A stretch of DNA of 64,000 nt from Chloroflexota bacterium. Lineage in GTDB: Bacteria > Chloroflexota > Anaerolineae > Anaerolineales > DRMV01. Below the pieces are notes generated by a model. The model did not search any database. It was not told where the DNA came from and saw only the letters and a list, made by a program, of their open reading frames with translations. The stretch lies in assembly GCA_011322445.1 (NCBI GenBank), contig DRMV01000011.1, positions 1 to 64,000 of the forward strand. Reading direction: 5' to 3'. How positions within the stretch are numbered: the first letter of the stretch is position 1; every line of letters begins with the position of its first letter. Position numbers and translations under genes: made by a program. Positions 4,471 to 43,206 of the stretch are shown one piece after another.

Positions 4471-5184
4471 ATGCAAGTCACCTTGAAAATCTTACGCTAT
4501 AACCCCGAAAAAGACGCCCAGCCGCATTACGAGCGCTATACTCTCGATGCGGAGCCGACCGACCGCATTCTGGACGTGCTGGAAAAGATCAAAGCGCACG
4601 AAGACGGCACGCTGACCTTCCGCCGCTCCTGCGCCCACGGTATCTGCGGTTCCTGCGCCATGCGCATCAACGGCCGTAACCGGCTGGCCTGCAAGACCTT
4701 GCTCCAGACCCTCGACACCAGCAAGGAAATCACCGTTGAGCCGATCCTGGGCCTGCCGCGGGTGAAAGACCTGGTGGTGGACATGACCACCTTCTTCGAC
4801 AACTACCGCAAGGTCATGCCCTACTTCGTCAACGATGAACCGTTGCCGGAAGACGGTCGTGAGCGGTTGCAGTCGCCTGAGGAGCGGGAACGCTTCGACG
4901 ACACCACCAAGTGCATCCTCTGCGGTGCCTGCACCACGGCCTGCCCCACTTTCTGGGCCGACAACAGTTACGTTGGGCCTTCGGCGATTGTCAATGCCCA
5001 CCGCTTCATTTTCGACAGCCGCGACCGCGCGGCCGCCGAGCGGCTCAAGATTTTGGCGGGCGAGAGCGGCGTTTTCCGCTGCCGTACGGCCTTCAACTGC
5101 ACCGAGGCCTGCCCGCGCGAAATTCAAATCACTAAGGCCATTGCCGAGGTCAAGCGCGCCATCATCACGGGGCGCCTGGACTAA
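4471..5184 (+). CDS. sdhB: Succinate dehydrogenase iron-sulfur subunit
   Basis: Carries electrons from the SdhA flavin to quinone. 237 residues with the full ligand set: [2Fe-2S] Cys54, Cys59, Cys62 and Cys74; then CILCGAC (Cys148, 151, 154) with Cys158, and CRTAFNCTEACP (Cys204, 210, 214) for the [4Fe-4S] and [3Fe-4S] centres. It starts 12 bases after sdhA behind an AAGGAGG box and is the last gene before a strong terminator. Confidence 0.96.
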   Translation: MQVTLKILRYNPEKDAQPHYERYTLDAEPTDRILDVLEKIKAHEDGTLTFRRSCAHGICGSCAMRINGRNRLACKTLLQTLDTSKEITVEPILGLPRVKDLVVDMTTFFDNYRKVMPYFVNDEPLPEDGRERLQSPEERERFDDTTKCILCGACTTACPTFWADNSYVGPSAIVNAHRFIFDSRDRAAAERLKILAGESGVFRCRTAFNCTEACPREIQITKAIAEVKRAIITGRLD

Positions 5185-5204
5185 AGGCGTTTCTCGCTAA
5201 TCAA

Positions 5205-5240
5205 AACGCCCGCTGGCTTTGCAACCAGCGGGCGTTTTTT
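5205..5240 (+). terminator. Bidirectional terminator, sdhB / ftsK
   Basis: A perfect 12-bp stem (AACGCCCGCTGG with its complement) and 8-base loop are followed by T's on the plus strand; the four A's before the stem give T's on the minus strand, so it can also end the convergent ftsK transcript. Confidence 0.9.
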
Positions 5241-5284
5241 GTCGTGTTTTTCGCCGTAAGACCTGGAGGGTTTCTCAAAACCTG

Positions 5285-7576
5285 TCAGGTCTGATTGTCC
5301 GAAGCCTCGTCCTTCGGCGGCAAGATAGGCCGCACGCCGCTGCCGGGGTGGGGTGGCCCCACGATGCCCTCGTCTTCCATCGCATCGACCAGGCGGGCGG
5401 CGCGCGTGTAGCCAATGCGCAAGCGCCGTTGGAGCAGCGAGGCCGAGGCTTTGCCTTCCTTCCGCACCAGCGCCACGGCTTGTTCCCACAGGGGGTCTTT
5501 GGGCTTTTGAGGTTGTGGCTCCGCTTCCATTTCTTCCCAAATGGGCTTTTGCTTCAGGGGAATGCCCGCGGGCGGCGCGTCCACAATGCCGCCAATGCCC
5601 GGCACCCCGGCCGTGCCGAAGTTGCGCCAGTAGTTCACCACCCGCCGAATTTCGTGGTCGGCGACGAACACCCCCTGCAACCGTACTGGCTCGGGGGCGT
5701 CGGGGGCCATGAAGAGCATATCGCCCCGCCCTAACAGCCGCTCGGCGCCAGGTTGGTCAAGGATCACGCGGCTATCGACCGTGGAAGCCACGGCGAAGGC
5801 AATGCGCGCCGGGAAATTGGCTTTGATCAGCCCGGTGACCACATCCACCGATGGGCGCTGGGTGGCAATGATGACATGGATGCCGGTGGCGCGCGCCAGT
5901 TGCGCCAGGCGGGTGAGGGTGCGCTCGGTGGTGTCTGGGGCCAGCATCATCAAATCGGCCAGTTCGTCGATGATGATGACCAGGTAAGGCAGTTTCTCGC
6001 CGCCGCTGCGCTCGACTTCCTGATTGTAATCGGCAATATGGCGCTTGCCCGCTTTGGCAAAGAGTTTGTAGCGCCGTTCCATCTCATGCGTCACCCATTG
6101 CAGCGCACCCACGACCCGCTCTAAATCGACCACCACAGGGGCCAGCAGGTGCGGAATGCCGTTGTAGCCGCTCAGTTCCACCCGCTTGGGGTCCACCAGC
6201 AGCAGGCGCAGGTCGTCGGGCGTGTTGTGTAGCAGCAGACAGGTGATGATGCCGTTCACGCACACCGATTTGCCCGAGCCCGTCGCCCCGGCGATGAGCA
6301 GATGGGGCATGGCCGCCAGGTCGGCGGCGACGGCGTGGCCGGCAACATCCTTGCCCAGCGCAAAGCGGAGCGGCGATTTAACCTTGCGGAAGGCGGGGCT
6401 TTCGATGACCTGGCGCAGCGTGACGGGCGCGGCTTCCTCATTAGGGACCTCGATGCCCACATAGCCTTTGCCCGGTACGGGGGCTTGAATGCGCACCCGC
6501 TTGGCGGAAAGCGCCAGGGCTAAATCGTCGGCCAGCGAGGCGATTTTGGAAACCCGCACTTTCATTGGCCCTTTGCGGCTTTCGACATAGCCGGGTTCGA
6601 CGCCGTAAAGGGTGACGGTGGGCCCCCGTAGCACTTCCACCACTTTGGCCGGTGCGTTGAACTGGGCCAAAGTTTCTTCAATCAGCCGGGCGCGGGCTTC
6701 GGTTTCTTCCTGCTGGTAGGCTTCGGTGGGCGATTCGTCGAGCATTTCAGCAATGTCGGGCAAGACCCACACTGGCTTTTCGACGGCCTGCGCGTTGGCT
6801 TCGGCTTCCGGCAAAGGGGCGGCCTCGCCGGCAGGCGCGGGCGGGGAAGAGGGTGACATGGCGGGCGCAGCGAAAGAGGGCGTGGCTGGGGAAGGCCACA
6901 GGCGGGCGCGCAGCCGTGCCAGCAGCAGCGCGCTGTGGTGGCGGAGGCGGCGGAAGACCGGCGGCAGCCAGCGGAACAAATCGGCCACAGGGCGATTGAG
7001 GGTGAAGGCCAGCCCCAGCACGACGCCGGCCAGCAGCATCACGGCTGCCCCCGCCCGGCCGAGGGTGGTGGTGAGCACCCACAACAACAGCGCACCGACG
7101 TAGCCCCCACCTTGCCCCTGCGCGGCCGCGGCGAAAGTGGCGCTGCGGGTGCTTTCCAGCAGCGGCAGGTGCAACACGGCCAGCACAGTGGCATAGAGCA
7201 GCATCAAACCGCTGACGCGCTCGGCGTTGAGCGTGGGGAAGCGCGTGCTCCGCCGGAAGATGATGCCCAGCCCCAGGACCAGCAACCACAGCGGGAAGAG
7301 CCACAGGCCCCACCCTAAGGCGCGTTGCCAGAAGGCCGCCCAGGGGTGCAATGCCGTCCCCTGGGGCCATACCAGGCTGGCAAGGGTAAGCAGCCCCGCG
7401 ATTGTCAGCGCGGCGCCGCCCAGGTCGTGTTTGCGTTCCGGGGAAAGGCGGGGCTTGGGCGGCGTGGCGGCAGGCGTCTGCTTTTTTGCGCGTCGTGAGG
7501 CTGGCCGCGCGGCTTTGCTGCTTTTTTTGCGCTTGCTGGTTTTAGAAGCAGAACGGGTTTGAGGTTTTCTGGGCAT
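5285..7576 (-). CDS. ftsK: DNA translocase FtsK/SpoIIIE
   Basis: Septal ATP-driven DNA pump that clears chromosome ends through the division site. 763 residues: a very basic N-terminus, four hydrophobic membrane helices (about 52-196), a Pro/Ala-rich linker, then alpha/beta motor domains with Walker A GATGSGKS (430-437) and Walker B LVIIIDELAD. The C-terminal gamma winged helix (LWEQAVALV...ASASLLQRRL, about 690-745) that reads KOPS/SRS-type polar sequences is present. The promoter is an extended -10 on the minus strand about 38 bases upstream. Confidence 0.95.
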   Translation of the reverse strand: MPRKPQTRSASKTSKRKKSSKAARPASRRAKKQTPAATPPKPRLSPERKHDLGGAALTIAGLLTLASLVWPQGTALHPWAAFWQRALGWGLWLFPLWLLVLGLGIIFRRSTRFPTLNAERVSGLMLLYATVLAVLHLPLLESTRSATFAAAAQGQGGGYVGALLLWVLTTTLGRAGAAVMLLAGVVLGLAFTLNRPVADLFRWLPPVFRRLRHHSALLLARLRARLWPSPATPSFAAPAMSPSSPPAPAGEAAPLPEAEANAQAVEKPVWVLPDIAEMLDESPTEAYQQEETEARARLIEETLAQFNAPAKVVEVLRGPTVTLYGVEPGYVESRKGPMKVRVSKIASLADDLALALSAKRVRIQAPVPGKGYVGIEVPNEEAAPVTLRQVIESPAFRKVKSPLRFALGKDVAGHAVAADLAAMPHLLIAGATGSGKSVCVNGIITCLLLHNTPDDLRLLLVDPKRVELSGYNGIPHLLAPVVVDLERVVGALQWVTHEMERRYKLFAKAGKRHIADYNQEVERSGGEKLPYLVIIIDELADLMMLAPDTTERTLTRLAQLARATGIHVIIATQRPSVDVVTGLIKANFPARIAFAVASTVDSRVILDQPGAERLLGRGDMLFMAPDAPEPVRLQGVFVADHEIRRVVNYWRNFGTAGVPGIGGIVDAPPAGIPLKQKPIWEEMEAEPQPQKPKDPLWEQAVALVRKEGKASASLLQRRLRIGYTRAARLVDAMEDEGIVGPPHPGSGVRPILPPKDEASDNQT

Positions 7577-7647: not shown

Positions 7648-8631
7648 TCAGTGCCATACCCGGAAGGCAGTTTCGGCTTCCCCCGTGATGCCGTCGAAGG
7701 TAGCGCGTATGCGCACGGCAATGTGACCGCGATAGGTTGGGACGGGCAGCCACACATTGAGGCAGCCGTCGTTGTCGGTGGTAAAGGCTTGTGGTGTGAA
7801 AGGGGCGGTGAGGGGCTCGCCCAACGTGTTGGTGAACTGCAGTTGTACTGTGGCTCCTTCCAGTGGCTGGCCTAACTGGTCGGTGACCCAGACGATGAGG
7901 TGAACCTGGTCTCCCGGGTGGGCCAGCACCGGCGTGATGGTTGCCATCACGCGCAGCGTCAGCACGGCGCGACGCAGCGGGGCTTCCCCACCCGCGGGCA
8001 AGGGGCGCAGCAGTTGGGGGTCGTGTTCGTTCTGCTGGAAGTACCATTCCCCTAAATTGCTGAGCACCACGCGGCCTTCCCGGGCGTGGTATTCCAGCCG
8101 GGCCTCTTCGAAATACTGCACTGGCACGCCGTTTTCCAGCAGCGGGTCACTGACCACCTGCCCCAGCACGGTGCGGTGTTGCTGGTAGAAGCGCAGGAAT
8201 TCATAGCACACGGGGTGCAGCGCCCCCTCCACGTCGGGGAAGGCTTTGCACCCGGCCCCGTTGAGGAAACTTTGCGACAGCGGTTCGCGATGCAGGCCCT
8301 TGCCGGGGTGTTCGTAGAAATACCGCCCCAGGTTGGCAAGGGTGGGCGAGGCGTGGTTGGGGCCTTGTTGGAAGAGCGCCCGTTGGAAATATTGCATGGT
8401 TTGGCCTTGCCGTTGGAAGGCCTCGGTGATGGGGTAGCCGAACAGCAGCGCCGCCTCGGGCCAGGCACGGTAGAAGTCGAGGAAATCGCCTTGCACCGTG
8501 TGGCCGGTTTGGGGGAAGTAGCGGACGTCTTCCGCGGCAAACAACCGGCTTGCCGAGAGCGACAGGGCAAGCGCGGTGCCGAGGATGAGCAAGAGGAGCA
8601 GGCTCCACGTGCGCCGCTGTTTGAGTCGCAT
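7648..8631 (-). CDS. Secreted protein with W/Y-rich envelope repeats and Ig-like domain
   Basis: 327 residues: an N-terminal signal/anchor helix (LLLLLILGTALALSLSAS), then two copies of a repeat built on FPxTGHTVxGDFLxFY, FGYPITEAF, VQYFExAR(L/F)EYHA and LSNLGxWYF-like segments, a type frequent in secreted Chloroflexota proteins, and a C-terminal Ig-like beta domain (about 225-327; HPGDQVHLIVWVTDQLGQPL, GCLNVWLPV). No catalytic residues were recognised; probably an extracytoplasmic binding or structural protein. Upstream in-frame starts are rejected because TATAAT sits exactly 6 bases before this ATG with no Shine-Dalgarno, implying a leaderless mRNA. Confidence 0.7.
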   Translation of the reverse strand: MRLKQRRTWSLLLLLILGTALALSLSASRLFAAEDVRYFPQTGHTVQGDFLDFYRAWPEAALLFGYPITEAFQRQGQTMQYFQRALFQQGPNHASPTLANLGRYFYEHPGKGLHREPLSQSFLNGAGCKAFPDVEGALHPVCYEFLRFYQQHRTVLGQVVSDPLLENGVPVQYFEEARLEYHAREGRVVLSNLGEWYFQQNEHDPQLLRPLPAGGEAPLRRAVLTLRVMATITPVLAHPGDQVHLIVWVTDQLGQPLEGATVQLQFTNTLGEPLTAPFTPQAFTTDNDGCLNVWLPVPTYRGHIAVRIRATFDGITGEAETAFRVWH

Positions 8632-8637
8632 GAGGTG

Positions 8638-8646
8638 ATTATAGCA
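8638..8646 (-). promoter_or_regulatory. Leaderless extended -10 promoter
   Basis: Minus-strand TGCTATAAT ends 6 bases before the ATG of the secreted repeat protein, so transcription should begin at or next to the A of the start codon. The nine bases are the same as in the ftsK promoter. Confidence 0.6.
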
Positions 8647-8737
8647 TGTTTTCGTGCCAGAAAGTGCGTCGGCGCGCTTCGTATAGCCGTGCTTCTGGGG
8701 CGGTGGGAGCGGGGGCGGCGCGAAAAACGGGTAAATG

Positions 8738-8756
8738 CCTGTATAATGAAAACAGG
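8738..8756 (+). promoter_or_regulatory. Putative promoter of the SH3 lipoprotein pair
   Basis: TATAAT at 8742-8747 lies inside an inverted repeat CCTGT (8738-8742) / ACAGG (8752-8756), which could be an operator. It leaves a leader of about 130 bases containing a 7-8 bp hairpin (8793-8800 with 8804-8811) and a possible small ORF. Confidence 0.4.
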
Positions 8757-8791
8757 TGTGTTTGTGTTTCGCCCGCAGGAGGAAGGCTGTC

Positions 8792-8875
8792 GTGCTGCCC
8801 ACGGGGCAGCATGAGACGTTGGTGCCAGGGGGCAACGTAACCTGTACAGCCACTGGGGCGCGTTCAAAGCCATGA
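8792..8875 (+). CDS. Possible 27-codon upstream ORF
   Basis: A GTG codon 6 bases after a strong AGGAGGAAGG box opens a 27-codon frame whose TGA overlaps an in-frame ATG of the following lipoprotein gene (ATGA). The start region also contains a hairpin. It could be a leader peptide or only a by-product of a purine-rich stretch; no homology is recognised. Confidence 0.3.
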   Translation: MLPTGQHETLVPGGNVTCTATGARSKP

Positions 8876-8886
8876 GGAGGAAGGAA

Positions 8887-9786
8887 ATGCGGTGGTTTCG
8901 GGCACAGAAAGGTTGGTTGTTGACCGTAGTGCTCGTTGCAGTTTTAGCATGCAACCTGCCGCAAGGGAATTCGCCGACGGGTGGGCCTGTGGCCTCTCCC
9001 CCATCCGGGGGTGGCGCTGGCCTTCAGGAGACGGCAGTTCCCCCCGCGGCACTGACGATGGCCGCGGGCACGGCTATTGCCGCGATGACTCAAACAGCAG
9101 CGGCTTTTCTCGCCGCCGCGCCAACGGGAACGCCGACGCCTTCGCCCACGCTCAGCCCCACGCCGACCCTCACCCTCACGCCCACGCCTTCCACTCCGAT
9201 GATCAGCGTTTCGGTGAACACCAACTGCCGCACCGGCCCCGGCGATACCTATGACCGCGTGGGCGCGTTGCTGGTGGGGGAAACCGCCGAGGTGCTGGCG
9301 CGCGACCCGTATGGCCAGTTCTGGTACATTCCCAACCCCGACAGGCCGGGCAGCAAGTGCTGGGTGTGGGGGCAGTACGCCACCGTGACCGGCGATACTT
9401 CATCGCTGCCGGTTTTCACCCCGCCGCCGACGCCTACACCCGCGGCGAACTTTGCCATCACTGGCCTGGGACACGTCGTGTGTGGAGGCGCGCATTGGTA
9501 TGCCCTGCAGGTGAAGAACACCGGCGGCCTCACCTGGGAGAGTTGGAAAGAAGAGGTGGTGGACCTGACCACCAGCGCGGCCGCGACTTACACCGGCGAT
9601 GGTTTTGCTGCCGCGTTTCGCTGTGTCTCGCTCGTTGTCCCTACACTTCCGGCTGGTCAGACGGCGTATGTGGGCAACTTTGCCAGCACCCCCGGCCACC
9701 ACGTGCGGATTACCCTTACCCTGTATACCGATACACATCAACGCGGGCAGGCCGTGACCTCTACGGCCGAATACAACCTTCCGTAG
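8887..9786 (+). CDS. SH3-domain lipoprotein, first copy
   Basis: Surface lipoprotein of 299 residues. A signal peptide ends in the lipobox LVAVLAC; the lipidated Cys is near residue 21. Then follow an Ala-rich segment, a Thr/Pro linker, a bacterial SH3-type domain (VNTNCRTGPG, YDRVGALLVGE, QFWYI) and a C-terminal beta domain of about 110 residues (FAITGLGHVVCGG). SH3b domains usually bind cell-wall or polysaccharide ligands. The start is preceded by GAGGAGGAAGG; an ATG 15 bases upstream overlaps a small ORF stop and is an alternative. A second, very similar gene follows 35 bases later. Confidence 0.8.
   Translation: MRWFRAQKGWLLTVVLVAVLACNLPQGNSPTGGPVASPPSGGGAGLQETAVPPAALTMAAGTAIAAMTQTAAAFLAAAPTGTPTPSPTLSPTPTLTLTPTPSTPMISVSVNTNCRTGPGDTYDRVGALLVGETAEVLARDPYGQFWYIPNPDRPGSKCWVWGQYATVTGDTSSLPVFTPPPTPTPAANFAITGLGHVVCGGAHWYALQVKNTGGLTWESWKEEVVDLTTSAAATYTGDGFAAAFRCVSLVVPTLPAGQTAYVGNFASTPGHHVRITLTLYTDTHQRGQAVTSTAEYNLP
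9177..9392 (+). repeat. 216-bp direct repeat, copy 1 (SH3 core)
   Basis: Differs from the copy at 10151-10366 at only three positions, while sequence on both sides is clearly diverged. The repeat covers the end of the Thr/Pro linker and the whole SH3 domain. Confidence 0.9.
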
Positions 9787-9821
9787 CACGGCGGCGCACC
9801 TTTGGCGTCAAAGGAGAAACG

Positions 9822-10769
9822 ATGCTTTCAAAACGAGTAAGTGTTGCTCTGTTCGGGTTTGTGCTGGTTGTTCTGATGGCTTGTAGTTTTTCAGTAGGGG
9901 CACAACGCCCACCCCAGCAAGCGGCGTCTCAGGTTCCTCCGGTTTTGCTGACCGCGGCGGCTCAAACCGTGATCGCGGCGCAAAACCAGGGAAAGCCTAC
10001 GGCCTTCCCGCCGGCCGTGTTGACCGCGGCAGCAGGTACCGCGATGGCCGCGCTGACCCAAAACGCGCCTCCTGCGACCTCCGCGGCCTTGCCTCCCACC
10101 GAGACGCCGACGCCTTCTCCTACGGCCAGCCCGACCCCCACGGTTGTGCCCACGCCCACGCCTTCCACTCCGATGATCAGCGTTTCGGTGAACACCAACT
10201 GCCGCACCGGCCCCGGCGATGCCTATGACCGCGTGGGCGCGTTGCTGGTGGGGGAAACCGCCGAGGTGCTGGCGCGCGACCCCTACGGCCAGTTCTGGTA
10301 CATTCCCAACCCCGACAGGCCGGGCAGCAAGTGCTGGGTGTGGGGGCAGTACGCCACCGTGACCGGGGAAACGGCTTCCCTGCCGGTCTTCACCCCCCCG
10401 CCGACGCCTACGCCTGTGGCGGATTTTGTGATCAAAGGTATCACGGTTAAAGATTGCAGTGGCGCTGACGCTTTCTTCATTGAGATATCCAATACTGGTG
10501 ACGTGCCATGGCAGAGTTTTTCCATGCAACTCAAAAACCTGACCACCTCAGCCAACGGTGGCGCTTCGGGCGATGTCTTCAGCAGCACGCGGGGCACGTG
10601 CAGCCTGGTGTACGACCTGAGTTCCATCCCGCCGGGCGGCGGCGCTTATATCGCTTATAATGGCGGCATCGGCGACCACACCCAGCGGATCCGCTTTACG
10701 GTCACCCTTTACGCCGAGGATGGGCAGCAGGGTGCGTCCCTTACGCGGGTCATCGAATACCGTCCCTGA
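9822..10769 (+). CDS. SH3-domain lipoprotein, second copy
   Basis: 315 residues, paralogue of the preceding gene: lipobox VVLMAC, Ala-rich region with two TAAAxT repeats, Thr/Pro linker, an SH3 domain almost identical to the first copy, and a C-terminal beta domain that is only distantly alike (FVIKGITVKDCSG...). The start has AAGGAGAAAC just upstream. The nearly invariant SH3 core beside diverged ends suggests either gene conversion or strong conservation of ligand binding with different C-terminal partners. Confidence 0.8.
   Translation: MLSKRVSVALFGFVLVVLMACSFSVGAQRPPQQAASQVPPVLLTAAAQTVIAAQNQGKPTAFPPAVLTAAAGTAMAALTQNAPPATSAALPPTETPTPSPTASPTPTVVPTPTPSTPMISVSVNTNCRTGPGDAYDRVGALLVGETAEVLARDPYGQFWYIPNPDRPGSKCWVWGQYATVTGETASLPVFTPPPTPTPVADFVIKGITVKDCSGADAFFIEISNTGDVPWQSFSMQLKNLTTSANGGASGDVFSSTRGTCSLVYDLSSIPPGGGAYIAYNGGIGDHTQRIRFTVTLYAEDGQQGASLTRVIEYRP
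10151..10366 (+). repeat. 216-bp direct repeat, copy 2 (SH3 core)
   Basis: Second copy of the SH3-coding repeat, 974 bases downstream of the first, with three mismatches. Confidence 0.9.
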
Positions 10770-10906
10770 AGAAGCGCGACCCTTCCGCAGGGGCTGCGGA
10801 TGAACGCGAGCATTAACGCCGAGGCGCCAGTTTCCTCAATCCCCCAATCCCCCAATCCCCTAATCCCCTTAACTCCTCACCCTCCCTATTTTTGAGAGTT
10901 TTTGAA

Positions 10907-10946
10907 AGCCCCTTGGCCGTATCATCGCCCCGCCAAGGGGCTTTTT
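10907..10946 (+). terminator. Terminator or attenuator just upstream of HMG-CoA reductase
   Basis: A 10-bp stem (AGCCCCTTGG, 10907-10916, with 10933-10942), a 16-base loop and five T's. It ends only 21 bases before the reductase ATG, leaving little room for a separate promoter, so it either ends the lipoprotein transcript with a promoter overlapping it, or acts as an attenuator in the reductase leader. Confidence 0.75.
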
Positions 10947-10967
10947 GCGCCCCTGCGAGGTGAAACC

Positions 10968-12251
10968 ATGAACCCGACTTCCCGCATCCCTGGCTTTTAC
11001 AACCTGCCTCTGGAAGCCCGCCGCGAGCGCATTGCCGCGATGGGGCTGCTTTCCCCGGAAGAATTTGCCGCCTTAGTGGGCGAACCCGGCCTCACCGCCG
11101 CCCAGGCCGACCCGATGATCGAGAACGTCGTCGGCACGTTTGCCCTGCCCCTGGGCGTCGCGCTCAACTTCGTGGTCAACGGCCGCGAGGTGCTGGTGCC
11201 TATGGCCATCGAAGAGCCTTCGGTGGTGGCTGCGGCTTCCTACATGGCTAAACTGGCGCGGAAAGGCGGCGGCTTTACCGCCCACACCAGCGCGCCGGAA
11301 ATGATCGGGCAAATCCAGATTCTGGACGTGGCCGACCCCCACGAAGCGCGGCTGAAAATTCTGGAAGCCCGCGGCGAAATTCTGGAAACCGCTACCGCTA
11401 TCGACCCGGTGCTTCAGCGCCTGGGCGGCGGCGCGCGCGACCTGGAAGTCCGCATCCTCAACCACCCTGCCTTGGGCGACTTCCTGGTGGTGCATCTGAT
11501 TTACGACGTGCGCGACGCGATGGGCGCCAACGCGGTCAACACCGCCTGCGAGCGCCTTGCCCCCCGCCTGGAAGCCCTCACCGGTGGGCGGGTGCACCTG
11601 CGCATCCTTTCCAACCTGGCCGACCGTCGCATTGCCCGCGCCCGCTGCACCGTGCCGGTGGAAGCCCTGGCCTTCGACGGTTTCCGCGGCGAGGAGGTGC
11701 GCGACGGCATCATCGCGGCCTGGGCTTTTGCCGCCGCCGACCCCTACCGTGCCGCAACCCACAACAAGGGCATCATGAACGGCATTGACCCGGTGGTGAT
11801 TGCCACGGGCAACGATTGGCGCGCGGTGGAAGCCGGCGCGCACGCCTATGCCGCCCGCAGTGGGCGCTACACTTCCCTGAGCACGTGGGGGAAGGACGCC
11901 GACGGCAACCTGGTGGGCACGCTGGAACTGCCCTTAGCCGTGGGCATTGTGGGCGGCGCGACCCGGGTGCATCCCGCCGCGCAGGCCGCGCTCAAACTGA
12001 TGGGCGTGCAGACCGCGGCGCAGTTGGCTGAAATCATCGCCGCGGTGGGGTTGGCGCAGAACCTCGGCGCGCTGCGGGCGTTGGCGACCGAAGGCATCCA
12101 GCGCGGGCATATGACCCTGCATGCCCGGCAGGTCGCCATTGCCGCGGGCGCGGAGGGTGAGGAAATCGCCGAAGTCGCCCGCCGCCTGGCCGAGAGCGGC
12201 GAAGTGCGCATTGACCGAGCGCAGGAGATTCTGGCGCAAATGCGGAAGTAA
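10968..12251 (+). CDS. mvaA: Class II hydroxymethylglutaryl-CoA reductase
   Basis: Converts HMG-CoA to mevalonate (or the reverse). 427 residues of the class II type first known from Pseudomonas mevalonii. All four catalytic residues fall at the same numbers as in that enzyme: Glu83 (EEPSVV), Lys267 (HNKGIMNG), Asp283 (ATGNDW) and His381 (RGHMTLHA). Asp146, associated with NADH preference in the Pseudomonas enzyme, is also present, so NADH is the probable cofactor. GAGG lies 9 bases upstream; an earlier in-frame ATG lies before the terminator hairpin and is rejected. It heads a cluster with HMG-CoA synthase, a thiolase-like protein and a DUF35 protein, which points to mevalonate synthesis for isoprenoids. 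Confidence 0.93.
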   Translation: MNPTSRIPGFYNLPLEARRERIAAMGLLSPEEFAALVGEPGLTAAQADPMIENVVGTFALPLGVALNFVVNGREVLVPMAIEEPSVVAAASYMAKLARKGGGFTAHTSAPEMIGQIQILDVADPHEARLKILEARGEILETATAIDPVLQRLGGGARDLEVRILNHPALGDFLVVHLIYDVRDAMGANAVNTACERLAPRLEALTGGRVHLRILSNLADRRIARARCTVPVEALAFDGFRGEEVRDGIIAAWAFAAADPYRAATHNKGIMNGIDPVVIATGNDWRAVEAGAHAYAARSGRYTSLSTWGKDADGNLVGTLELPLAVGIVGGATRVHPAAQAALKLMGVQTAAQLAEIIAAVGLAQNLGALRALATEGIQRGHMTLHARQVAIAAGAEGEEIAEVARRLAESGEVRIDRAQEILAQMRK

Positions 12252-12332: not shown

Positions 12333-12353
12333 TCCTAAGTGATGGAGGAAACG

Positions 12354-13412
12354 ATGACCGAATTGCTACGCCCGGAACGCCCCGTGGGCATCGTGGGCTA
12401 CGGGGCTTACATCCCCCGCTACCGGCTGCCCGCCCACGAAATTGCCCGCATCTGGACGGAAGGCAAGGGCGGCCTGCCCATCCGCGAGAAGGCCGTGCCC
12501 GGCCCCGATGAAGACACCGTAACCATCGCCACTGAAGCGGCGCGCAACGCCCTCGCACGGGCGCAAATCGACCCCGCCGACCTGCGCGCGGTGTGGGTGG
12601 GTTCCGAATCCCACCCCTACGCGGTCAAGCCCACCGGCACCATCGTGGCCGAGGCCCTGGGCGCGACGCCCTACACCCAGGCGGGCGACTGGGAATTCGC
12701 CTGCAAGGCGGGTACCGAGGCCATGGTGGCTGCCTTCGGGCTGGTGGGTTCCCGCATGGCCGACTACGCCCTGGCCATCGGCGCGGATACCGCCCAGGGG
12801 CGCCCCGGCGACGCCTTAGAATACACCGCCGCGGCGGGCGGCGCGGCTTTCGTCGTCGGCCCCGCGGAAAACAGCCTCGCGGTGCTGGAAGCCACCCTTT
12901 CCTTCGTCACCGACACCCCTGACTTCTGGCGCCGCGCCCACCAGCACTACCCCGAACACGGCGTGCGCTTCACCGGCGAACCGGCCTACTTCCACCACAT
13001 CGGCAACGCGGCCCGCGCCTTCATGGAAGCCACCGGCACCACCGCCGCGGACTATGCCTACGCGGTCTTCCACCAGCCCAACGCCAAATTCCCCCAGCGC
13101 ATCGCCAAATCGCTGGGGTTCACGCCCGAACAAACCGAAGTCGGCCTGCTCTCGCCGGTCATCGGCAACACCTACTCCGGCGCGGCCATCGTGGGGCTGA
13201 CCGCGATTCTGGATGTGGCCCAGCCCGGCGACCGCATCCTGATGGTGTCCTTCGGCTCGGGGGCGGGTTCCGACGCAATGGCCTTTACCGTCACTGATGC
13301 CATTCTGGAACGCCGCCATCTGGCTTCGGCCACCCAGGATTACATCCGCCGCCGCACCGAAATCGACTACGCCACCTACACCCGCTGGCGCGGCAAACTG
13401 ATTCTCAAATAA
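12354..13412 (+). CDS. Hydroxymethylglutaryl-CoA synthase, archaeal type
   Basis: Condenses acetyl-CoA with acetoacetyl-CoA to HMG-CoA. 352 residues, the compact form found in archaea and some bacteria. Cys117 in EFACKAG is the acyl-accepting nucleophile, Glu85 (GSESHPY) the probable general base, and His240 (FHQPNAKFP) the acetoacetyl-CoA-binding His; [10 protein letters not shown] is also intact. GGAGGA 5 bases upstream fixes the start; an ATG 12 bases earlier overlaps that box. In archaea this enzyme forms a channelling complex with thiolase and a DUF35 protein, and both partners are encoded next. Confidence 0.93.
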
Positions 13413-13474
13413 AAACCGCAGATTTCACAGATTACGCAGAAAAATCTGTGCAATCTGCGTTATCTGCGGTTTGG
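13413..13474. repeat. Intergenic palindromic repeat (CACAGA family)
   Basis: Perfect 11-bp ends AAACCGCAGAT / ATCTGCGGTTT enclose a further imperfect hairpin. Almost the same sequence recurs at 43147-43206. Confidence 0.8.
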
Positions 13475-13490: not shown

Positions 13491-14648
13491 ATGAGCGAAA
13501 TTGTGATTGCCGGTATCGGCATGACCCCGGTAGGAGAACATTGGGCGACTTCCCTGCGCGAACTGGCGCTGGAAGCCATCGAAAAAGCCCTGCACGAGGC
13601 CGAGGGCCTGCGCCCGCAAGCCGTGTTCGTTGCCAACATGCACGCGCCGGTGCTTTCCCGACAGGCCAACATCGGCCCGTTGGTGGCCGATTTTGCCGGT
13701 TTCCGCGGGGTGGAAGCCGCCACGATTGAGGCCGGCGGTGCTTCGGGTGGCATGGCGCTGCGCGCCGCGTACCTTGCCGTGGCTTCCGGCGAGGTGGATG
13801 TAGCCCTCGCGGTGGGCGTGGAAAAGGCCACCGATCGGGTGGGTGCCAGCGTGGAAAGCGCGGCCGCCACGGTGCTCGACGCGGACTACGAAGCCGAGCA
13901 GGGCGTGACGCCTGCGGTGCAGGCTGCGCTCATCATGCAGCACTACATGCAGGAAACCGGCGCACCCCGTGAAGCCTTTGCCGCCTTCCCGCTGCTGGCG
14001 CACCAGAACGCGGTGGGCAATCCCTACGCCATGTATCGCAAGGCGGTGAAGGAATCGGTGTACCATCGGGTGACGATGGTCAGCGACCCCCTCAACCTGT
14101 TCGACGCCGCACCTCTCGCCGACGGCGCGGCTGCGGTGCTGGTGGCCCGGCGGGATGTGCTGCCCCCCAAGACCGCTCGGCCTTTGGTGAAAATTGCCGG
14201 TTTCGGCATTGCCAACGATACCCTGGCCTGGCACGACCGGGACGACCTGCTCGACTTCGCCGCGGTGCGCCGCTCGGTGGAAACCGCCTGTCAGCGCGCC
14301 GGCTGCGCCCCCGCTGATGTGGACTTTTTCGAACTCTACGACGCCTTTTCGGTGTACGTGCCCCTGATTCTGGAAGCCGCCGGCTTCGCCCCCCGCGGCG
14401 AAGGCTGGAAACTGGGCCAGGGCGATGCCCTCACTTTAGATGGCAGCCTGCCGATTTTGACCATGGGCGGCCTGAAAGCCCGCGGCAACCCTGGTGGTGC
14501 GACTGGCCTTTATCAAATCGCCGAAGCCGTGCTGCAACTCCGCGGCCAAGCCGGTGACAACCAGATCCCTCGCGCCCGCCGCGCGTTGGTGCAATCCCTC
14601 AGCGGCCCGGCTTCCCTGGCCGTGACCGCTGTGCTGGAAGCGGTTTAG
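13491..14648 (+). CDS. Thiolase-like protein lacking the catalytic Cys
   Basis: 385 residues, thiolase superfamily, archaeal acetyl-CoA acetyltransferase/SCP2-like branch by overall pattern (ASGGMALRAAYL, VGVEKATD, APLADGAAA, GGLKARG). Position and context suggest the acetoacetyl-CoA-forming partner of HMG-CoA synthase. However, the nucleophile position reads IEAGGASGG, with Gly83 where EAACASG is expected; the catalytic His of GHP is Asn333 (RGNPGG); and the usual HDxF His is Tyr283 (ELYDAFS). It should therefore not make a thioester-bound intermediate. Alternatives are a scaffold in the HMG-CoA synthase/DUF35 complex, or a repurposed enzyme such as the DUF35-associated, Cys-less aldolase Ltp2. 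Start supported by GGAGG 7 bases ahead. Confidence 0.85.
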   Translation: MSEIVIAGIGMTPVGEHWATSLRELALEAIEKALHEAEGLRPQAVFVANMHAPVLSRQANIGPLVADFAGFRGVEAATIEAGGASGGMALRAAYLAVASGEVDVALAVGVEKATDRVGASVESAAATVLDADYEAEQGVTPAVQAALIMQHYMQETGAPREAFAAFPLLAHQNAVGNPYAMYRKAVKESVYHRVTMVSDPLNLFDAAPLADGAAAVLVARRDVLPPKTARPLVKIAGFGIANDTLAWHDRDDLLDFAAVRRSVETACQRAGCAPADVDFFELYDAFSVYVPLILEAAGFAPRGEGWKLGQGDALTLDGSLPILTMGGLKARGNPGGATGLYQIAEAVLQLRGQAGDNQIPRARRALVQSLSGPASLAVTAVLEAV

Positions 14649-14650
14649 TG

Positions 14651-14922
14651 GAACCGCGGAGCACGCAGATTACGCATTTTTCGTAATTACCTACCCAGAA
14701 GCGTCGCGGTTAGCCTTGGGCCTGTAAATGCTCACCCGGAGAACAGCAAGGACACGGAGAGCACCTCCCTTTGCAAGCGCTTTTTGGAGTGCGGTGCCTT
14801 GGCGCCGCTTTGGAAAGCGGCGACTCGTCGCCGCACTCCAAAGAAACACTGCCCACAGAGGCGTTTTGCTACCACGTAGGTAATTACCATTTTTCTGCGC
14901 AATCTGTGAAATCTGCGGTTTT
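14651..14922. repeat. Palindromic repeat split by a MITE
   Basis: The left half (14651-14682) and right half (14888-14922) together match the palindromic family seen at 13413 and 43147: ACGCAGATTACGCA on the left, CTGCGCAATCTGTG and AATCTGCGGTTT on the right. A 205-bp insertion separates them. Confidence 0.7.
14683..14887. mobile_element. 205-bp MITE with 12-bp inverted ends
   Basis: Perfect 12-bp terminal inverted repeats GTAATTACCTAC (14683-14694 and complement 14876-14887) are flanked by the 8-bp direct repeat CATTTTTC (14675-14682 and 14888-14895), a clear target duplication. The element has no transposase. Inside is a long imperfect hairpin around GGAGTGCGG...CCGCACTCC. GTAA ends and an 8-bp duplication are features known for the IS66 family, so such a transposase may have moved it (inference). 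Confidence 0.8.
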
Positions 14923-14991: not shown

Positions 14992-15402
14992 ATGGAAATC
15001 TCACGCCATTGGCGATTACGCAAGCAGCGCTACGCTCTGGAGGGCGAGGTTTGCCCCCACTGCGGCGCAAAACTGTTCCCCCCGCGGGATGTGTGCCCCC
15101 ACTGCGGCCTGGAAGCCAAGCAGACTTACACCTTCGTCGGCACCGGCACCGTGGTTTCGTGGACGACCGTGCGCCAACCCCCTGAAGCCTTTGCCGAGCA
15201 GGCGCCGTATGTGGTTGCCCTCATCCAACTCGACGAAGGCCCCAAACTCACCGCCCAACTCACCGACCTGGGCGACGTGGAGCCTTACCCGGGAATGCCG
15301 GTGGAAATGGTAACCCGCAAATTGCGTAACGACCGGGAAGAACGGGGGTTAATCATCTACGGATACAAGTTCCGCCCTGTGTTGGCGCGCGCCGTGGCGT
15401 AA
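14992..15402 (+). CDS. DUF35 Zn-ribbon/OB-fold protein
   Basis: 136 residues. An N-terminal rubredoxin-like zinc ribbon has Cys21, Cys24, Cys35 and Cys38 (two CPHCG motifs), followed by an OB-fold (GTGTVVSWTTV, PYVVALIQLD, GMPVEM). In archaea DUF35 proteins bridge thiolase and HMG-CoA synthase and shape a shared CoA-binding site; other DUF35 proteins pair with Cys-less thiolase-like aldolases. Either fits this cluster. AGGAGAG lies upstream of the ATG. Last gene before a strong terminator. Confidence 0.9.
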   Translation: MEISRHWRLRKQRYALEGEVCPHCGAKLFPPRDVCPHCGLEAKQTYTFVGTGTVVSWTTVRQPPEAFAEQAPYVVALIQLDEGPKLTAQLTDLGDVEPYPGMPVEMVTRKLRNDREERGLIIYGYKFRPVLARAVA

Positions 15403-43146: not shown

Positions 43147-43206
43147 AAACCGCAGATTTCACAGATTACGCAGAAAAAATCTGTGTCATCTGCGTAATCT
43201 GCGGTT
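43147..43206. repeat. Intergenic palindromic repeat (CACAGA family)
   Basis: Perfect 11-bp ends AACCGCAGATT / AATCTGCGGTT, nearly the same as the element at 13413-13474, 30 kb away. Confidence 0.8.

Follow-up and report, generated by a model that had tools for sequence, protein, structure and literature searches.

The window, by which we mean the entire 64,000-nucleotide stretch of DNA analyzed here, carries a mevalonate-type gene cluster on its forward strand (Table 1). The neighbors implied in the original prediction were upheld by profile matches to HMG-CoA reductase (HMGR), an archaeal-type HMG-CoA synthase (HMGCS), and a DUF35 protein with a zinc ribbon and an OB fold, which is presumed to be the bridge joining the thiolase to HMGCS. 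The TTG start listed for the reductase is doubtful, and an in-frame ATG lies near 10968. The catalytic residues of HMGCS (Glu88, Cys120, and His243, numbered on the aligned 355-aa protein) are conserved in no fewer than 99% of the 125 copies aligned, including that of the window. The genes for HMGCS, the thiolase-fold protein, and the DUF35 protein are adjacent, as the archaeal-type complex requires. Of the elements of that complex, the window encodes an intact HMGCS and a thiolase subunit with the fold of 6ESQ chain A, which does not have the Cys-His-His set of a competent thiolase.

Table 1. Features of the window at and around the thiolase-fold gene
Feature	Position	Strand	Basis
Two neighboring ORFs with a shared stretch	8872-10769		Long near-identical stretch in common
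HMG-CoA reductase, TIGR00532 type	10902..12251	+	TIGR00532, 429 bits (cutoff 260); PF00368
Archaeal-type HMG-CoA synthase (HMGCS)	12345..13412	+	TIGR00748, 538 bits (cutoff 353)
Thiolase-fold protein without catalytic residues (putative pseudo-thiolase subunit)	13491..14648	+	ATG start, 385 aa; alignment and fold model matched to 6esq/6et9
Gly83 (GGT), position of the nucleophilic Cys	13737..13739	+	Alignment, codon reading
Tyr283 (TAC), position of the HDxF His	14337..14339	+	Alignment, codon reading
Asn333 (AAC), position of the GHP His	14487..14489	+	Alignment, codon reading
DUF35 protein, zinc ribbon and OB fold	14992..15402	+	PF01796, PF12172; zinc-ribbon Cys conserved in relatives
CAGATTACGCAGA-type repeat sites	13428-13466, 14894-14906, 31586, 34661, 43162-43201		7 copies

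The CAGATTACGCAGA-type repeat listed in Table 1 compares with 0.02 copies expected in the window. Some copies form inverted pairs, and two of the sites flank the thiolase gene. The stretch shared by the two neighboring ORFs (ISVSVNTNCRTGPGD...CWVWGQYATVTG) looks like a duplication.

Loss of the catalytic residues

Catalytic positions were assigned by alignment to the thiolases 7yvy and 6esq, in which Gly83 of the window protein falls on the nucleophilic Cys of IEAACASGG. The replacement of the Cys and both His residues by Gly83, Tyr283, and Asn333, as originally predicted, is borne out by this alignment and by the codons. Both the CASG-motif nucleophilic Cys and the GHP His of acetyl-CoA C-acetyltransferase are missing, and the protein scores 265.6 bits against NCBIfam NF053570, below the curated cutoff of 600 bits. 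An AlphaFold2 model gives a confident thiolase fold (mean pLDDT of 94.4), whose best structural match is the 6esq thiolase, also represented by 6et9 (Z score of 61.5 and root mean square deviation of 1.4 over 383 residues). The loss of the Cys, the HDxF His, and the GHP His is real and confirmed. A relocated catalytic Cys was looked for and rejected, as no conserved Cys occurs elsewhere in the Cys-less set.

A sequencing or assembly artifact, or a gene in the process of being lost, is an extremely improbable explanation. The Gly83 codon GGT is a single base from the Cys codon TGT, as an error would have it, but Gly, Tyr, and Asn are identical in three congeneric metagenome-assembled genomes (MAGs) at 94-95% identity, and a base-call error in the window gene can therefore be dismissed. 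Independent MAGs of the genus and the family agree, the three catalytic positions are lost together in an intact frame with a dN/dS of about 0.1, and the orthologs in other assemblies refute both error and decay.

The dN/dS of the Cys-less gene lies between 0.08 and 0.13 in five close pairs including or surrounding the window's genus, with similar values for HMGCS and DUF35; a sixth pair is nearly identical and has too few changes to judge. The median ratio of thiolase to HMGCS distance across loci is 1.69 for Cys-less and 1.11 for Cys-bearing copies. Low dN/dS together with a raised distance ratio means that the Cys-less protein is maintained by purifying selection under looser constraint, evolving faster relative to HMGCS than the active versions do. 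The claim that the gene is not decayed thus agrees with both its dN/dS and its confidently modeled fold.

Distribution of the Cys-less thiolase in Chloroflexota

Searches of relatives, the class, and the phylum, together with one named scan and fetched stretches, yielded 179 thiolase-family rows after the removal of identical ones. The named-scan sources are mostly MAGs of Anaerolineales and other Anaerolineae, Ardenticatenia, and Thermoflexus. A Cys-less thiolase in an HMGCS/DUF35 setting accounts for 111 rows, while 38 Cys-bearing rows share this setting and 24 others are off-operon or of unknown setting. Five off-operon rows have Thr at the Cys position, and one additional row, a fragment lacking a residue at position 83, was scored as Cys-less. 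The five Thr-bearing paralogs (L146, L147, L148, L149, and L205) retain both His residues and form one clade. Cys-less operon loci span several families and no fewer than two classes; in the other class of the phylum, families f71, f81, f104, and f106 show Gly-Ser-Asp and similar forms. The gene order that the original prediction proposed to look for is conserved, as all 111 Cys-less loci follow HMGR-HMGCS-thiolase-DUF35, with some ending early at contig ends; the Gly83, Tyr283, and Asn333 residues are not. In open-licence papers on pseudoenzyme thiolases, the mevalonate thiolase of Anaerolineae, and the HMG-CoA synthase of Roseiflexus, we found no report of such a Cys loss.

In many genomes with a Cys-less operon copy, a Cys-His-His copy is encoded elsewhere; in family f12, every one of the 12 genomes sampled has such a copy off the operon. 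One cluster (L144:2763-6549, contig C177 of G021) has both kinds in tandem around DUF35, in the order HMGCS, Cys-less thiolase (GHE), DUF35, and Cys-His-His thiolase. These genomes suit a model in which the dead subunit forms mixed dimers or tetramers with the active paralog and tunes or anchors it. We nevertheless consider this model quite improbable, since no such paralog was seen in the window's genome, no second full-length match of that kind was found in the searched members of its family, and the paralogs form a distinct clade that is mostly off operon.

Several loci deviate individually. The operon copy at L172:3047-4285 has an intact Cys and HDxF motif and a GHP motif changed to GNP, a possible intermediate. 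In L077, two ORFs that by eye resemble TnpB-type transposon proteins lie between HMGCS and the thiolase gene and after DUF35 (4759-5901 and 7831-8952). An ORF at L153:2581-3042 (G028), also between HMGCS and the thiolase gene, duplicates the initial codons of the thiolase before continuing with lipoprotein-like sequence. A contig titled Pleurocapsa minor (L122), possibly misbinned, contains the entire cluster; its thiolase is of the EHN type and groups with the Chloroflexota rows.

Evolutionary history and active-site variation

We constructed a careful tree of 52 rows with the active-site columns excluded, in which one branch (support of 97/94) sets off all Cys-less rows; adding the other class gives one to three origins of the loss. 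Because the Cys-less rows lie on one side of a single branch, the loss appears to be an old, clade-wide event rather than a local accident. Orthologs with an intact Cys/His set, which the original prediction took to imply local loss or sequence error, do occur: Cys-His-His is retained in the operon slot by all Thermococcus rows and by further families of the class, and some off-operon paralogs are intact as well. The implication itself is contradicted by the tree. A convergent origin of Asp-His-Asn in L058 and L159 was suggested by a quick tree but not by the careful one, with its single Cys-less clade.

The site triplets of the Cys-less copies are diverse and include DHN, GHD, GYN, GHF, GSD, and EHN, among others. 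What is conserved among the Cys-less orthologs is the loss alone (Cys absent and the GHP His nearly always absent) and not the replacements. Within the window's clade of 49 rows, many residues occur at positions 83, 283, and 333, with Phe333 in 17 rows and Tyr283 in 6; columns 283 and 333 belong to the more variable ones and column 83 is about average, while the flanking residues are near-invariant. Two further positions, Asn145 and Ser207 in 61 and 58 of 62 Cys-bearing copies, respectively, are altered in most Cys-less copies. As Gly, Tyr, and Asn are not conserved among the orthologs, Tyr283 is unlikely to be catalytic.

One subclade of 32 rows behaves differently from the rest of this pattern, with Asp/Glu83 in 31, His283 in all 32, and Asn333 in 31. 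This near-fixed triplet hints at a retained site function and counts against reading the protein as a pseudoenzyme. It would suit a site rebuilt for another reaction, with an acidic residue in place of the nucleophile and acid/base chemistry rather than covalent handling of the CoA thioester, from which Gly-Tyr-Asn would be derived. Cys-less thiolase-fold aldolases with DUF35 partners do exist (PMC12329534), and the steroid aldolases Ltp2 and Sal (6OK1 and 9MYR) resemble the window protein in having a thiolase fold that lacks classical thiolase chemistry, a DUF35 partner, and a Tyr at the HDxF His position. Ltp2 uses YDHF and a second Tyr, whereas Sal uses YDCY (PMC12329534). The comparison with Ltp2 put forward in the original prediction fails at the residues tested: the window protein reads YDAF, with Ala285 where Ltp2 has His and Sal has Cys two residues after the Tyr. 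By a spacing of 50 residues, the equivalent of Tyr344, the second Tyr of Ltp2, may fall at Asn333. Unlike in Ltp2 and Sal, the setting is a mevalonate operon throughout, and Tyr283 is not conserved in the window's clade. The steroid-aldolase mechanism, judged by the YDAF motif, does not fit the window protein. With columns 283 and 333 as variable as they are in the window's own clade, we regard a rebuilt site as unlikely. Its more specific form, in which [Asp/Glu]-His-Asn is a new noncovalent active site on CoA thioesters within the HMG-CoA synthase complex and ancestral to the window's form, would be a touch less probable still.

Acetoacetyl-CoA supply

The original prediction held that acetoacetyl-CoA must come from elsewhere, a claim supported by the window's genome (G000), in which three classical thiolases retain both the Cys and the GHP motif. 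Classical thiolases serve many other roles. The operon state was known for 81 genomes, G000 included, one of which was set aside (Cys present and GHP His absent). A classical thiolase is present in 55 of 55 Cys-less genomes versus 18 of the 25 whose operon copy is Cys-His-His (Fisher P = 1.5e-4 when counted by genome, a test that ignores part of the shared ancestry). Counted by family, a genome lacking a classical thiolase occurs in 0 of 24 Cys-less families versus 4 of 13 others (P = 0.011, with shared ancestry partly uncorrected). The MEP-pathway enzyme DXR was found in none of 21 genomes checked, in agreement with the reported lack of the DXP pathway in the class Chloroflexi (PMC3857490), and the mevalonate decarboxylase family was detected in 16 of the 21.

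Comparison with known complexes and proposed role

The window encodes the same three gene products as the thiolase/HMGCS complex of M. thermolithotrophicus (6esq), and HMGCS is of the archaeal type in both. In the archaeal complex, DUF35 joins the thiolase and HMGCS, and CoA is bound where all three meet (PMC6392133, PMC12329534). The archaeal thiolase makes acetoacetyl-CoA with Cys85 and both His residues, whereas all three are missing from the window protein. PhlABC of Pseudomonas protegens (5M3K) shares the HMGCS-like/DUF35/thiolase architecture and also holds one dead subunit, in mirror image: the thiolase PhlC is active, while the HMGCS-like PhlA has lost its Cys (to Gly115) and Glu (to Cys83), yet activity requires the complete complex (PMC6392133). 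Another archaeal thiolase-fold relative, ST0096 of Sulfolobus tokodaii (4YZO), likewise lacks the catalytic Cys, with Ser in its place, but keeps both His residues, neither of which is present in the window protein.

We favor, with a probability of roughly 70%, the interpretation that the window protein is a pseudoenzyme subunit retained for assembly of the HMGCS-DUF35 complex, with acetoacetyl-CoA made by another thiolase. The structural partnership suggested in the original prediction is supported as the leading reading. The missing catalytic residues, the conserved operon, the purifying selection, the intact HMGCS, the other thiolases of the genome, and the lack of DXR are observed. We infer a physical complex, a scaffold role for the Cys-less protein, its contribution to the CoA site, and the identity of the feeding thiolase. 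The thiolase subunit of the thiolase/HMGCS/DUF35 complex would no longer form acetoacetyl-CoA and would be retained because assembly of the complex depends on it, with DUF35 bridging it to HMGCS. The Cys-less thiolase may also form one wall of the CoA site that the three proteins would share. Acetoacetyl-CoA from another thiolase, in the window's genome a classical one, would enter the shared cavity, where the intact HMGCS would carry out the condensation. The loss may have been favored because an inactive site is unable to split acetoacetyl-CoA into acetyl-CoA again.

The archaeal complex is currently read as a channel that couples the unfavorable thiolase step to HMG-CoA synthesis. An entire lineage that keeps the complex with a dead thiolase site would show that the thiolase protein also serves a structural purpose, one that could be tested apart from catalysis. 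Family-based annotation can label such proteins acetyl-CoA acetyltransferases despite their missing catalytic residues. The window's genome encodes a second Cys-less thiolase-fold protein (L217:4141-6340, contig C32), which reads VEGGGATGG with intact HDAY and GHP motifs; downstream of it lie a DUF35-type OB-fold protein and an ORF resembling an AMP-dependent acyl-CoA synthetase.
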